Position numbers and translations under genes: made by a program
Shown here: positions 4,980 to 43,281 of the stretch, piece after piece
Position numbering within the stretch: the first letter of the stretch is position 1
Layout: each line of letters starts with the position of its first letter
NCBI RefSeq assembly: GCF_019355395.1
Contig: NZ_CP048829.1
Coordinates: 2,955,001-3,019,000, forward strand
From: Chordicoccus furentiruminis
GTDB lineage: Bacteria; Bacillota; Clostridia; Lachnospirales; Lachnospiraceae
Reading direction: 5' to 3'
DNA length: 64,000 nucleotides
The notes under the pieces: model-generated
Databases searched by the model: none
The model's input: only the letters and a program-made list of their open reading frames with translations
Told to the model about the DNA's origin: nothing

Positions 4980-5126
4980 TTTCAAGTCGGCCGGCGAGAT
5001 AAAGGAAGGCCTGATCATTTCGCACATGAAAAGATCGCAGATCCATTTCGCATCTTTACGGTCCGTCTTGTTTCCCTTTTGCGGATTGGTGTGTTTTTTT
5101 GGGGGGGAGCAAGGACGACATTTCAT
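4980..5126 (-). pseudogene. IS110-family transposase relic
   Basis: The minus strand encodes about 49 residues including NPQKGNKTDRKDAKWICDLF followed by MCEMIRPSF. The intact IS110 transposase at 40467-41726 has KPQKGNKTDRKDAKWICDLF and MCDMIKPSF at the same place. The DNA is also clearly similar but not identical, so this is a relic of a related element rather than a recent copy. The segment covers the last two acidic residues of the DEDD catalytic set. Everything else of the element is gone. Confidence 0.85.
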
Positions 5127-39686: not shown

Positions 39687-40358
39687 ATGATAAACGCAGC
39701 GGCGGAAAAGAATCCGGCGGAGACGGGCGGCAGATCCGACCGGAAAATCATCGATTACAATCTGAAGGAGGAGCTGGAGCACGGTGTGTATGTCAGTTCG
39801 CTCGTCCGGGAACTGACGGCGGAACTGGGACTGGCGGAAAACTCCGCCTATCAGCTGAGGCTGGCGGGCCTGCTTCATGATATCGGAAAACTGCAGCTGA
39901 CCAATTATCTCTACGGGCGGGAGGAGATCGCGAGCCCCCTTGTCATCGAGGAGATGAAATATGTCCGCATGCACCCGGTTCTGTCGTGGAACATTCTGAA
40001 GGACCTCGGATACAGCGACATCGTTCTGGACGCAGTGCGCTATCATCACGAGGACTTCGACGGAAGCGGCTACCCGGATCATCTGGTGGGGGAAGCGATT
40101 CCGCTTGGCGCGCGGATCATCCGCGTCTGCGATGTGTTCGCTGCGCTGACTTCAGACCGCCCATACCGGGAGCGGTTCGAACCGGATGAGGCGATGAGCC
40201 TGATGATCGACGAGATCAAGCACTTTGACCTGAGAATTTTTCTGGCATTCCAGCGGGTTGTCCACCGCGGGACCTCCCGGTTCCGGGTGCATTTTCCCAT
40301 AACGGACGAGAGCATTCTCGCGGAAGCGGCCGCCAGATTTCCGGCAGGCCGGAACTGA
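39687..40358 (+). CDS. HD-GYP domain protein, probable cyclic-dinucleotide phosphodiesterase
   Basis: This 223-residue protein is almost entirely an HD-GYP domain: HDIGK at about residues 64-68, RMHPVLSW, the family-defining HHEDFDGSGYP, and CDVFAALTSDRPYRERF. HD-GYP enzymes hydrolyse c-di-GMP or related messengers. No receiver or other sensor domain is present. ATG 39687 lacks a close ribosome site; AGGAGG at 39665-39670 is 16 bases upstream, so the start is uncertain. An IS110 element follows within about 30 bases and separates it from hisS. Confidence 0.88.
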   Translation: MINAAAEKNPAETGGRSDRKIIDYNLKEELEHGVYVSSLVRELTAELGLAENSAYQLRLAGLLHDIGKLQLTNYLYGREEIASPLVIEEMKYVRMHPVLSWNILKDLGYSDIVLDAVRYHHEDFDGSGYPDHLVGEAIPLGARIIRVCDVFAALTSDRPYRERFEPDEAMSLMIDEIKHFDLRIFLAFQRVVHRGTSRFRVHFPITDESILAEAAARFPAGRN

Positions 40359-40466
40359 TGAAGGAGACAAGTTTGAAAAAAGAGGTAGGCGGTTAGATAT
40401 CGTAAAGAGGGCATAGCAAACAAACCCTCAAGGGGTCTTTGAAAAGCAAATATAGACACGACCTAA

Positions 40467-41726
40467 TCAGGAAGCAGTGACGGGCAGATCGTCTTTGATG
40501 ACGTAGCCTCTGAGCTTCAGCAGATTAAGTGCCTGCGAAGTAGTGAGAATCTTTTCTGTCTTCACAGGCCGCGGAGCAAGATACCCTTCAGCTGTATACG
40601 GCTTCAGATCTGTCAGTATGTGCCAGATAGCGGTCAGGAGCATACGGCAGACAGCGATGATGGCTTTCTTGTGCCCGCGGTGGGATTTGATACGGCGGTA
40701 ACGTTCTGTGATCTCCGGATGTTTCTTCGATTTGATCAAAGCATTTGCAACTTGCACCAAAACTGGTTTAAGATAGGAACCAGCACGGGAAATCCGAGTG
40801 GATTTGATCTTGAAATTGCTTTGATCGTTACGGGGACAGCATCCTGCCCAGGAAACAAGATGTTTGTCTGTCGGGAACACAGACATGTCGCCGCCAATCT
40901 CAGAGAGAATCTGAATCGCCGTAAAAGGGTTTTTGTCGAAACCGGGGACAGTGCGGATCAGTTCGAGAGCGTCAAGGTACGGATCAGAAACGCGAAGGAT
41001 TTCCCGTTCCATTTCTGCCTTGTGCTTTTCCAACTCATCGATGTGGTCCAGACACTGACGAAGCTTTATAGCCTGTTCTGGAGAGACAGCGCCGTCAACA
41101 GCGGCTTGGATTTCTTCAATTGGGGTCTTGCATCTTCTATCCACAAAAGGAGTGACATCAAAGGTTTCACCGGGATGGGCGAGGATGTATTCCGTAATCG
41201 ATCTGGAAGACTTCCCGAACACGTCGCTGAAGACATCGTCAAGTTTGAGGTTTGATACAGTCAGACAATTCTGTGCACGGTTCTTCTCACCTGTCAGCAT
41301 GTTGGTGAGTTTGAACCGGTACCGCACTAAATCCCGAAGATGACGAATCTCGGCGGGTGGGATAAAGGAAGGCTTGATCATGTCGCACATGAACAGATCG
41401 CATATCCACTTCGCGTCCTTACGGTCGGTCTTATTCCCTTTTTGTGGTTTGGTGTACTTAGGGTGAGCAAGTATCACGTTGCATGTCTTTTCAAGGACAT
41501 TGAATACCGGGATCCAGTACTTGCCGGCAGATTCCATGCATACATCGGTACAGTTGTAAGAGGCGAGCCATGCGGCGAGATCCCGCAGACCTCTGGAGAA
41601 AGAGGAAAACATCTTTTCCTTATATTCTGTCCGGCCGTTTGCATCCGTGAGTCCAATGCAGGCAAAGATCCAGGTCTTGTGGACATCAAGGCCACAGCAG
41701 TTAAAACGAAAGATTTTAAAAGCCAA
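40467..41726 (-). CDS. IS110 family transposase
   Basis: This 419-residue RNA-guided recombinase has the RuvC-like DEDD domain at the N terminus: D14 in GLDVHK, E65 in CMESAGKYW, and D101/D104 in KTDRKDAKW. The C-terminal Transposase_20 domain contains IQILSEIGGDM, LVSWAGCCPRNDQS (with the likely catalytic Ser) and RRIKSHRGHKKAIIAVCRM. The start is taken as TTG 41726 because AGGAGG lies 7 bases upstream (plus-strand 41734-41739); a longer frame exists but lacks a site. It looks intact, so the element may be active. Confidence 0.93.
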   Translation of the reverse strand: MAFKIFRFNCCGLDVHKTWIFACIGLTDANGRTEYKEKMFSSFSRGLRDLAAWLASYNCTDVCMESAGKYWIPVFNVLEKTCNVILAHPKYTKPQKGNKTDRKDAKWICDLFMCDMIKPSFIPPAEIRHLRDLVRYRFKLTNMLTGEKNRAQNCLTVSNLKLDDVFSDVFGKSSRSITEYILAHPGETFDVTPFVDRRCKTPIEEIQAAVDGAVSPEQAIKLRQCLDHIDELEKHKAEMEREILRVSDPYLDALELIRTVPGFDKNPFTAIQILSEIGGDMSVFPTDKHLVSWAGCCPRNDQSNFKIKSTRISRAGSYLKPVLVQVANALIKSKKHPEITERYRRIKSHRGHKKAIIAVCRMLLTAIWHILTDLKPYTAEGYLAPRPVKTEKILTTSQALNLLKLRGYVIKDDLPVTAS

Positions 41727-41739
41727 TAAAACACCTCCT

Positions 41740-41960
41740 GATATTTTGTAGTTGCAGGAGCGGCGGTGACTGGTCATCCGGCGAAATCGAGACAACTTCG
41801 GAAGAGATAAGTTTACGGGCTACGAGATGCGCCATTCATTGATGCCTTAAGGATGACCGGCAACATATAGATATGCGAGGTAGGCCGCTATACCGCCCCG
41901 CCACTCACCTCCACGTGCTCTGTAGTGTGCCGACCCTGCAAGAAAAAGATATCAGGAATT
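41740..41960 (-). ncRNA. Candidate bridge-RNA region of the IS110 element
   Basis: The long noncoding stretch upstream of the transposase matches the place where IS110-subgroup elements encode the bridge RNA that pairs with target and donor DNA. GGTCATCC at 41772-41779 and GGATGACC at 41851-41858 form an 8-bp stem enclosing about 70 bases, and GC-rich stems around GGCCGCTATACCGCCCCGCC occur further out. The loops were not assigned to target or donor by eye. Confidence 0.5.
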
Positions 41961-42011
41961 GAGAATAGTAGAAAGAGCGAAAGCACCTCGATTTTCATGA
42001 CCCCATCGGTG

Positions 42012-42030
42012 CCTTTCGCCAGAAAGGCGG
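42012..42030 (+). promoter_or_regulatory. Hairpin overlapping the hisS ribosome binding site
   Basis: CCTTTC (42012-42017) pairs with GAAAGG (42022-42027). The presumed ribosome site AAGGCGG (42024-42030) overlaps the right arm, 9 bases before the hisS ATG. Confidence 0.4.
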
Positions 42031-42039
42031 AAAATAGAT

Positions 42040-43281
42040 ATGGCACTCACGAAGAAGCCCGTTACGGGCATGAAGGATATTCTGCCGGATGAGATGGCGG
42101 TCCGGAATTATGTGATCGGACTCATCCGGAGCACATACGCGATCTTCGGGTTTTCATCCATCGCCACGCCGGCGGTGGAACATATCGAAAACCTGCTTTC
42201 CAAACAGGGCGGCGAAAACGAGAAGCTGATTTTCAAGATTCTGAAGCGGGGAGAAAAGCTGGATCTCTCGCACCCGACAACCGAGGACGCGGTCACGGAC
42301 AGCGGTCTCCGGTATGATCTGACGCTGCCGCTTTCGCGGTACTACGCGAACCACGCCGCGGAGCTGCCGTCTCCGTTCAAAGCGCTTCAGATCGGCAGCG
42401 TATTCCGCGCCGACCGCCCGCAGCGGGGGCGCTTCCGCCAGTTTACCCAGTGCGACATCGACATCCTCGGCGATCCGAGCGATCTGGCTGAGATCGACCT
42501 GATTCTGGCGACGACGACGGTGCTGACGAAGCTGGACTTTCACCGCTTCACGATTCGTGTCAATGACCGGAAGCTTCTGAAGGCGATGGCGGACCGGGCC
42601 GGGTTTCAGCCGGAGGACTACGAGAAGGTCTTTATTATTCTCGACAAGATGGATAAGATCGGGCGGGACGGCGTCCGCTCTGAACTGGAGGCGTCCTGGC
42701 CAAAGGAAAAAGTGGATGCCTATCTGAGCCAGTTTGATACGGACGGAGGCTCGGAGAACATCAGCGGGCAGGCGCACTCGCTGATGGAGGAGACGGGTTC
42801 GCCGCTTCCGGAGATCATCGGGACGGTAAACAGCGTGAAGACAGGCGATTTCCGCATCGTCTACGACCCGACGCTTGTGCGCGGCATGAGCTACTACACC
42901 GGTCCGATCTTCGAGATCGCGATGGACGAGTACGGCGGATCCGTAGGCGGAGGCGGTCGCTATGACGAGATGATCGGGAAATTCACCGGCCAGCCGACCC
43001 CGGCGGTGGGCTTCTCCATCGGGTTCGAGCGGATCATCATGCTTCTGATGGAACGCGGCTTTACGGTGCCCGGCGCAGGCGCGAAGACTGCGTTCCTCGT
43101 CGAAAAGCGGATGCCGGCTGAGAAGCTGGAGGCGATCTGGAAGGAGGCGATGAGCCTCCGTGCGGAGGGTAAGGCCGTCGATATTTCCCAGATGAAGAAG
43201 AACCGCCGCTTCCAGAAGGAGCAGCTGACGGCGCAGGGATACACGGATATCCGGGAATTCTTCTGCAGAGAAGACAGCTGA
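42040..43281 (+). CDS. hisS: Histidyl-tRNA synthetase
   Basis: This 413-residue class II synthetase charges tRNA-His. Motif 1 lies near GMKDILPDE, motif 2 is FRADRPQRGRFRQFTQCD (about residues 122-139), the HisRS-specific LVRGMSYYTGPIFEIA is at about 285, and motif 3 is AVGFSIGFERI. The short C-terminal anticodon-binding domain is present. Upstream sequence has been altered by the IS110 insertion and no T-box or clear promoter remains visible. aspS follows 50 bases later, the usual order. Confidence 0.96.
   Translation: MALTKKPVTGMKDILPDEMAVRNYVIGLIRSTYAIFGFSSIATPAVEHIENLLSKQGGENEKLIFKILKRGEKLDLSHPTTEDAVTDSGLRYDLTLPLSRYYANHAAELPSPFKALQIGSVFRADRPQRGRFRQFTQCDIDILGDPSDLAEIDLILATTTVLTKLDFHRFTIRVNDRKLLKAMADRAGFQPEDYEKVFIILDKMDKIGRDGVRSELEASWPKEKVDAYLSQFDTDGGSENISGQAHSLMEETGSPLPEIIGTVNSVKTGDFRIVYDPTLVRGMSYYTGPIFEIAMDEYGGSVGGGGRYDEMIGKFTGQPTPAVGFSIGFERIIMLLMERGFTVPGAGAKTAFLVEKRMPAEKLEAIWKEAMSLRAEGKAVDISQMKKNRRFQKEQLTAQGYTDIREFFCREDS

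Follow-up and report, generated by a model that had tools for sequence, protein, structure and literature searches.

The stretch of DNA analysed here, called the window below, is 64,000 nt of the genome of Chordicoccus furentiruminis (assembly GCF_019355395.1, contig NZ_CP048829.1, positions 2,955,001 to 3,019,000), and it carries an element of the IS110 family directly before the tRNA-synthetase gene hisS. Judged from its sequence and those of its relatives, this is likely a recently mobile element which inserts into translation initiation sites by means of a bridge RNA. The RNA predicted in its left end has one strand that covaries with the target, as a triplet, and another that covaries with the donor, as a hexamer, a feature of bridge RNA (seekRNA) systems. 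The features discussed below are collected in Table 1.

The genome contains four copies of the element, which are 100% identical across 1,671 aligned bases and share their edges, while the sequence outward of the edges differs from copy to copy. Read on the transposase strand, the left edge that they share is CATATCTATTTTCCGCC and the right one CAAACTT; because these edges are common to four identical copies, they are more than chance. The CAT at the left edge is the hisS start codon ATG read on the other strand, so the element itself comes to 40370-42035 plus one core base, as placed by the four copies and, by analogy, by the empty sites of cousins described below. The element at 40370-42035 is real and intact, with 309 bases of non-coding DNA upstream of the transposase gene against 97 downstream.

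Both IS110 Pfam domains, PF01548 and PF02371, score over the cut-off in the transposase (81.9 and 61.5 bits, respectively). In an alignment with IS621 (PDB 8wt6; E 1.5e-9) the E, both later D residues and the serine line up, the serine motif being PRNDQS against PRRYES in IS621; the first catalytic D (CGLD) lies outside the aligned stretch and was assigned by eye. The first-pass annotation of this DNA, made from the letters alone, had described an intact IS110 recombinase with the DEDD set and a C-terminal serine domain, and these matches bear it out. It had also placed an element at 40359-42039; the element is there, but these bounds are too wide, taking in the native bases 40359-40368 of the Shine-Dalgarno (SD) region and the native triplet 42037-42039. 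Its figure of about 260 bases of structured non-coding DNA before the gene fell short of the 309 bases found (41727-42035), although the structure holds in so far as part of the helices covary. An attempt to place the element in the IS110 or IS1111 group by a protein tree failed on long branches: ISEc21 and IS4321, the latter of which we take to be of IS1111 type, are about equally distant (25.5% and 29% over about 100 residues) and both join the tree as such branches.

Table 1. Features of the element and of its target at hisS, in window positions
Feature	Position	Strand	Basis
Native hisS Shine-Dalgarno region AAGGAGAC, severed from hisS: right target half	40361-40368	+	sequence; copies differ outward of edge
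Core T (A on +), right junction	40369	-	lone T between flank and element at 3 of 7 cousin empty sites; by analogy
Right end of element, CAAACT then core T; CAAACTT matches donor guide	40370-40466	-	four copies; right-end hexamer equals donor guide in 88 of 95
IS110 recombinase (DEDD and serine domain), 419 aa, TTG start	40467-41726	-	Pfam PF01548 and PF02371; alignment to IS621, PDB 8wt6
Left end: non-coding region with predicted bridge RNA	41727-42035	-	four copies; homologous in loci of other genomes
Predicted bridge RNA core, from 5' arm (41929-41934) to 3' arm (41759-41764) of closing helix P1	41759-41934	-	alignment of 17 sequences
Donor guide AAACUUAU, matching right end of element	41807-41814	-	follows right end through five variants
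Predicted helix P2 around donor domain, 5' arm (3' arm 41772-41779)	41851-41858	-	5 of 8 pairs changed on both sides
Target guide CAUAUCUAUAUG for start codon ATG and triplet (triplet 41870-41872)	41864-41875	-	RNA triplet equals flank triplet in 54 of 63
Predicted hairpin between the two target guides (helix 3)	41876-41900	-	1 of 9 pairs changed on both sides
Putative target guide GGAGGUGAG, copying Shine-Dalgarno sequence, in loop of predicted helix 2	41904-41912	-	nearly invariant; SD at 52 of 55 sites
Palindrome GCCTTTCtggcGAAAGGC in left end; outward RNA overlaps replacement SD	42011-42028		sequence; outward fold
Element-borne outward Shine-Dalgarno AGAAAGGCGG, 9 bases before hisS ATG	42021-42030	+	anti-SD pairing energy
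Core T (A on +), left junction	42036	-	lone T at 3 of 7 cousin empty sites; by analogy
Native target triplet GAT and hisS start codon ATG (CATATC on transposase strand): left target half	42037-42042	+	four copies; triplet native in 7 of 7 cousin empty sites

The match between RNA and target was examined in relatives, of which the best 80 of 119 gave 79 loci with 68-92% identity, mostly from Clostridia by their titles, with Enterococcus avium and a few other labels; cousins of 42-57% identity were added. Relatives of about 50-92% protein identity show the same insertion geometry. On the RNA strand, (C/U/A)AU-NNN-U matches an ATG as its complement together with the three bases before that ATG. 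The loop was read with the pattern (C/T)AT-NNN-TAT in the RNA, and CAT was not demanded of the flank. Of 74 RNA loops, 63 distinct insertions with a readable left end remained after removal of L006, L011 and L100 (second fetches), of six loci that lack a left flank and of two contexts already represented. All 63 have CAT, a triplet and TAT at the element edge and belong to one site type in one orientation, and in 54 of them the triplet of the (C/U)AU-NNN-UAU loop equals that of the flank. When the insertions were collapsed by genome and RNA triplet, taking the commonest flank per group, 35 of 43 groups matched, against a mean of 2.9 and a maximum of 11 in 100,000 shuffles. With added loci and cousins the triplet matched in 79 of 93 cases, this count and that of 88 of 95 below coming from extended patterns that accept only flanks with CAT and right ends with CA.

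A patterned loop was missing from 18 of the 79 loci: seven are incomplete upstream, six were missed by the first pattern and match the triplet exactly by eye, L083 has one mismatch, L052 an indel, the guide of L050 is deleted, and L076 and L099 are rearranged. In one Peptococcaceae genome, L062, L066 and L071 have the triplets AUG, UAC and AUC, the RNAs of L066 and L071 being otherwise almost identical; the triplet of L066 matches its flank, that of L071 does not, and L062 lacks a full flank. Reading of distant plasmid relatives (31-36% identity, ends unmapped) from Peribacillus, Alicyclobacillus, Paenibacillus, Streptomyces, M. avium, Arthrobacter and Rhodococcus did not show the start-targeting pattern. 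On a Roseburia plasmid, both copies of a 42% cousin (L148 and L151) have CATAATAATC at the left flank and in the RNA, a longer match than that of the main family.

At the other end of the element, the donor strand AAACUUAU equals the right-end hexamer in 88 of 95 places, and the two change together: AAACTT occurs 76 times, AATCTT five, AAGCTT four, ACACTT twice and AACCTT once. The 12 matches other than AAACTT come from four groups. Among the seven mismatches, two are AAATTT and five appear to be misreads of the pattern. No complement of the left end was found by eye on the 5' side of the donor domain.

To see the sites before insertion, seven insertions of elements about 50% identical to that of the window, on plasmids of Enterococcus raffinosus and E. 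faecalis, were compared with uninterrupted relatives. The triplet was already native at all seven empty sites, at two of which (TCT and ATT) it differs from the RNA triplet UUU, and no target duplication was seen at any of them. Three sites (L131, L141 and L150) match exactly, one T standing between flank and element. The other four have lost bases from the stretch that joins the CATNNN side to the SD side, namely AAAT (L145), AAT (L146), T (L140) and, in place of T, AC (L144); the comparisons used L191, L189, L188 and L186, respectively, and each loss is seen against two uninterrupted records. Strain divergence is a possible cause of these short losses, the E. faecalis relatives being 92-98% and those of L145 99.5% identical. 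Three of the four missing stretches end in T. A further strain at the L141 site, L195, has the triplet TTG and not TTA. Annotation was read for six of the seven cousin sites, and CAT is exactly the annotated start at four of the six, for L131 and L145 in the filled record and for the L144 and L140 sites in uninterrupted ones.

The proposed second half of the target is the SD. The sequence GGAGGUGAG is nearly constant across the RNA alignment and lies on the 5' side of the target domain, beyond the hairpin from the start-codon guide, which makes it the obvious candidate for a guide to the SD side; because it does not vary, a test by covariation is impossible. Under a rule of at least 4 matching bases at 3-10 bases from the ATG, an SD was found at 52 of 55 reconstructed sites and at 11.6% of 12,899 control ATGs. 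At these 52 sites, and at the seven cousin empty sites read, the insertion falls between SD and ATG. An open reading frame (ORF) of at least 60 codons begins at 46 of 62 sites against 27% of 5,322 controls. At sites whose ATG opens fewer than 60 codons, the SD is still present in 13 of 16, against 10.5% of controls (P 7e-11); therefore SDs are likely sought by sequence and not merely inherited with genes.

The structure of the RNA was predicted with RNAalifold from 17 aligned sequences, and its significance was judged against 500 shuffles and slid versions. The fold has a helix that closes it, a hairpin that separates the two target strands and another helix that encloses the donor domain. In the alignment 95.5% of cells are paired and 15 pairs are changed on both sides, neither figure being reached by any of the 500 shuffles, and slid versions give 34-44% pairing. 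Covariation is found in helices 1, 4 and 8 and in one pair of helix 3; in the window sequence the closing helix P1 has one mismatch. The probable bridge RNA of the first-pass annotation is thus supported by a covarying structure and by two covarying strands, one matching the left flank and the other the right end. The comparison of loops with flanks that it had suggested was run on many insertions and did not refute the bridge RNA: the triplet of the target loop agrees with the left flank and the second strand with the right end. The bases that match are 40369-40375 and 42036-42042, the coordinates that it had given for them being off. In L050 (metagenome-assembled genome RUG14672), whose protein is 92% identical, the stretch of the RNA from the hairpin to helix P2 has lost the start-codon guide. 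The SD of the transposase gene itself (AGGAGGTG, 41732-41739) lies within predicted helix 8 and may for that reason be masked in the RNA.

At hisS itself, the joined flanks read AAGGAGAC-A-GAT-ATG, that is, a reconstructed site of AAGGAGACAGAT directly before ATG. The uninterrupted hisS start of relative L105, AAGGAGACAGATTATG, is close to it. Among the 38 genomes with a match (own genome included), 29 related loci were read: an HD-GYP gene lies upstream in 27 and aspS follows in all 29, and the element is absent from all 28 whose start could be read (L128 is cut). Because the joined flanks resemble the L105 start and relatives have no element there, we conclude that insertion of the element separated the SD from its start codon. 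This agrees with the earlier description of an interrupted, otherwise conserved HD-GYP-hisS-aspS order with the transposase, on the minus strand, antisense to hisS. An insertion upstream of hisS, as then stated, is also correct, although the position is more exactly the gap between SD and ATG, and hisS is one case of a general site type.

With its native SD severed, hisS is left with the outward sequence AGAAAGGCGG. The pairing energy with the anti-SD, over the 22 bases before ATG, averages -11.5 kcal/mol after insertion (63 sites, whose related left ends are not independent), -10.6 kcal/mol at native sites (55) and -4.1 kcal/mol at random controls (630). Since the value after insertion is near the native one and far from the control, the left end appears to supply an SD. 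This replacement overlaps the palindrome and so may be masked in part; the folding of the outward leader is unremarkable (z -0.9 and -1.7), so a switch by SD masking is only an idea. A consensus scan of 40330-42060 revealed no outstanding outward promoter: it gave one promoter-like site, on the transposase strand, where 1.6 were expected. Transcription of hisS may therefore still start at the native promoter and run through the element. The earlier proposal that hisS must be driven from within or just downstream of the element therefore holds for the SD, and found no backing in the promoter scan.

Taken together, these results suggest the following course. The recombinase and its RNA would recognise a start site, one guide reading the start codon with its triplet and the other reading the SD; the cut would fall after the T between the two signals, and a circular element would be inserted with its transposase antisense to the target gene. 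The left end would then put its own SD at a working distance, leaving the gene, here the essential hisS, translatable from any transcript that arrives. Changes of the RNA triplet would retarget the element to other start sites. More tentatively, and at somewhat less than even confidence, we propose that the start signal is read as two flexibly spaced half-sites, by the guide that copies the SD and the guide that complements ATG and three bases; that the junctions may use different T residues, with loss of the bases between them; that, with the SD re-supplied by the left end, genes, even essential ones, are entered without being destroyed; and that the preference of IS900, discussed below, has the same cause.

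Several observations weigh against this interpretation. The triplets mismatch in nine of the 63 insertions, four of the nine (L008, L046, L048 and L088) being of G-U type by inspection; the shuffles take no account of kinship between genome groups, although related elements are not independent; and for the E. faecalis cousin all three triplet bases match at only one of four distinct sites. The SD-like guide GGAGGUGAG is nearly invariant and its helix 2 shows no double changes, nor do helices 5, 6 and 7, and matching it in a fixed register to the SD side gave no clear register. L004, in the genome of the window, opens an ORF of only 15 codons and has a poorly placed SD, and L042 and L047 have none by the rule used. 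A simple conservative insertion with one core does not explain the net loss of 1-4 bases at four of the seven cousin sites, and the relatives of L144 have no T after the triplet. The CAT of L150 is 27 bases off the annotated start, and L146 lies inside a gene.

Some of these points would fit a process in which only ATG and the triplet direct insertion, the SDs being seen through selection because harmful insertions are lost, and GGAGGUGAG being structural. The scant variation of GGAGGUGAG, its lack of a fixed register and the within-gene site L146 speak for it. We regard it as unlikely, since SDs are as frequent as given above where no long ORF follows, and even L146 has GGGAG upstream of its ATG. 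It is still less probable that the element is a dead, fixed copy with no RNA guidance today. Four copies were found in the genome, and L050 shows that a relative can lose the start-codon guide; the four copies are nevertheless identical although they sit at different sites, and their open reading frame and both guides are intact, which implies recent movement. Very improbable is the idea that the triplet beside CAT belongs to the element and is copied along with it, in which case its agreement with the RNA would not bear on the target. It draws on the fact that all four copies in this genome, and all four of E. raffinosus, have the same triplet. It is refuted at the seven cousin sites, where uninterrupted strains already have the triplet, even where the RNA differs, and the same RNA triplet is found with different flanks (L040/L049, L008/L012 and L060). 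That the structured region is a host leader of hisS (riboswitch or T-box), as a palindromic region directly before a tRNA-synthetase gene might suggest, was rejected as the least probable of all, because the same stretch recurs before different sequences in the four copies, is absent before hisS at the 28 related loci and yields no Rfam family at gathering score in a scan of the window. Insertion guided by a bridge RNA into translation initiation sites remains the preferred interpretation.

A related preference is known. Doran is said to have described in 1997 that IS900 targets translation initiation signals. The comparisons that follow draw on sections of the open-access papers cited. IS900, an IS110-family element of Mycobacterium avium subsp. 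paratuberculosis, is reported to prefer the motif CATGNNNNNNTCTCCTT and so shares the targeting of translation starts (PMC8141618); as this preference is already reported, the type of target is known and not new. Its left-end repeat, beginning ACCTTTCTTGAAGGG, has CCTTTC near the end, as does the window element (PMC8141618). Unlike IS900 as published, the window family has a variable triplet after CAT. In the open-access literature searched no bridge RNA for IS900 was found, and a search of the plasmid collection did not yield the IS900 sequence.

IS621 resembles the window element in its recombinase of DEDD and serine type, its left-end RNA with target and donor domains and a nearly invariant core T (PMC11208158). 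It differs in that, in both domains of the window family, the strand which repeats the left flank, or the right end, lies on the 3' side, and the predicted fold of this family is multi-branched. ISEc21, of IS110 type, likewise has its RNA before the transposase, whereas the complement of the top strand comes first, as here, in the seekRNAs of IS1111 type, for which a reversed guide order is reported (PMC11187229). In the ISEc21 sequence, by eye, the left-flank match precedes the right-flank complement; its target is an IS3-family gene, whereas that of the window family is translation starts. The guide order of the IS110 group, with the left-flank strand 5' in the loop, was not found in the window element, where CAUNNNU lies 3' of the hairpin and of GGAGGUGAG. 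By its sequence, the element is of mixed character, with an RNA position of IS110 type and a guide order of IS1111 type. No bridge RNA tied to an SD or a start codon was found in the open-access literature searched, including sections of PMC11208160, PMC11208158, PMC11187229, PMC8141618, PMC7823733 and PMC7288454. Within that literature three points appear to be new: the basis in RNA, the reversal of the guide order and the small losses of bases at four of the seven cousin sites.

If the proposal is true, a bridge-RNA element can be both RNA-guided and broad in its choice, since its guides would read a widespread gene signal and three variable bases would choose among targets. It would offer a testable RNA explanation for the IS900 targeting reported in 1997, and the natural RNA triplets with their matching sites would be a ready-made record of reprogramming. 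The reversed guide order combined with an upstream RNA bears on the split between the IS110 and IS1111 groups. Working as proposed, the element might serve as a gentle insertion tool that enters before start codons while restoring the SD.

Some minor observations concern the ends of the element and the rest of the window. At 40370-40396 the native SD now faces a TTG (40373-40375) at the former position of the ATG, and this opens an ORF of 7 codons ending in TAG. The right ends of other elements, read with the pattern that requires CA, would give TTG there too, and the two ACACTT ones GTG. This ORF recalls the hed idea of IS900 and may simply follow from the donor sequence. The left-end palindrome at 42011-42028 is present in many of the relatives read and may have a role in end recognition or in control of the outward RNA. 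Elsewhere in the window, a stretch of 106 bases at 4987-5092 has 85% identity to the interior of the transposase gene and is probably the remnant of a related IS110 element.
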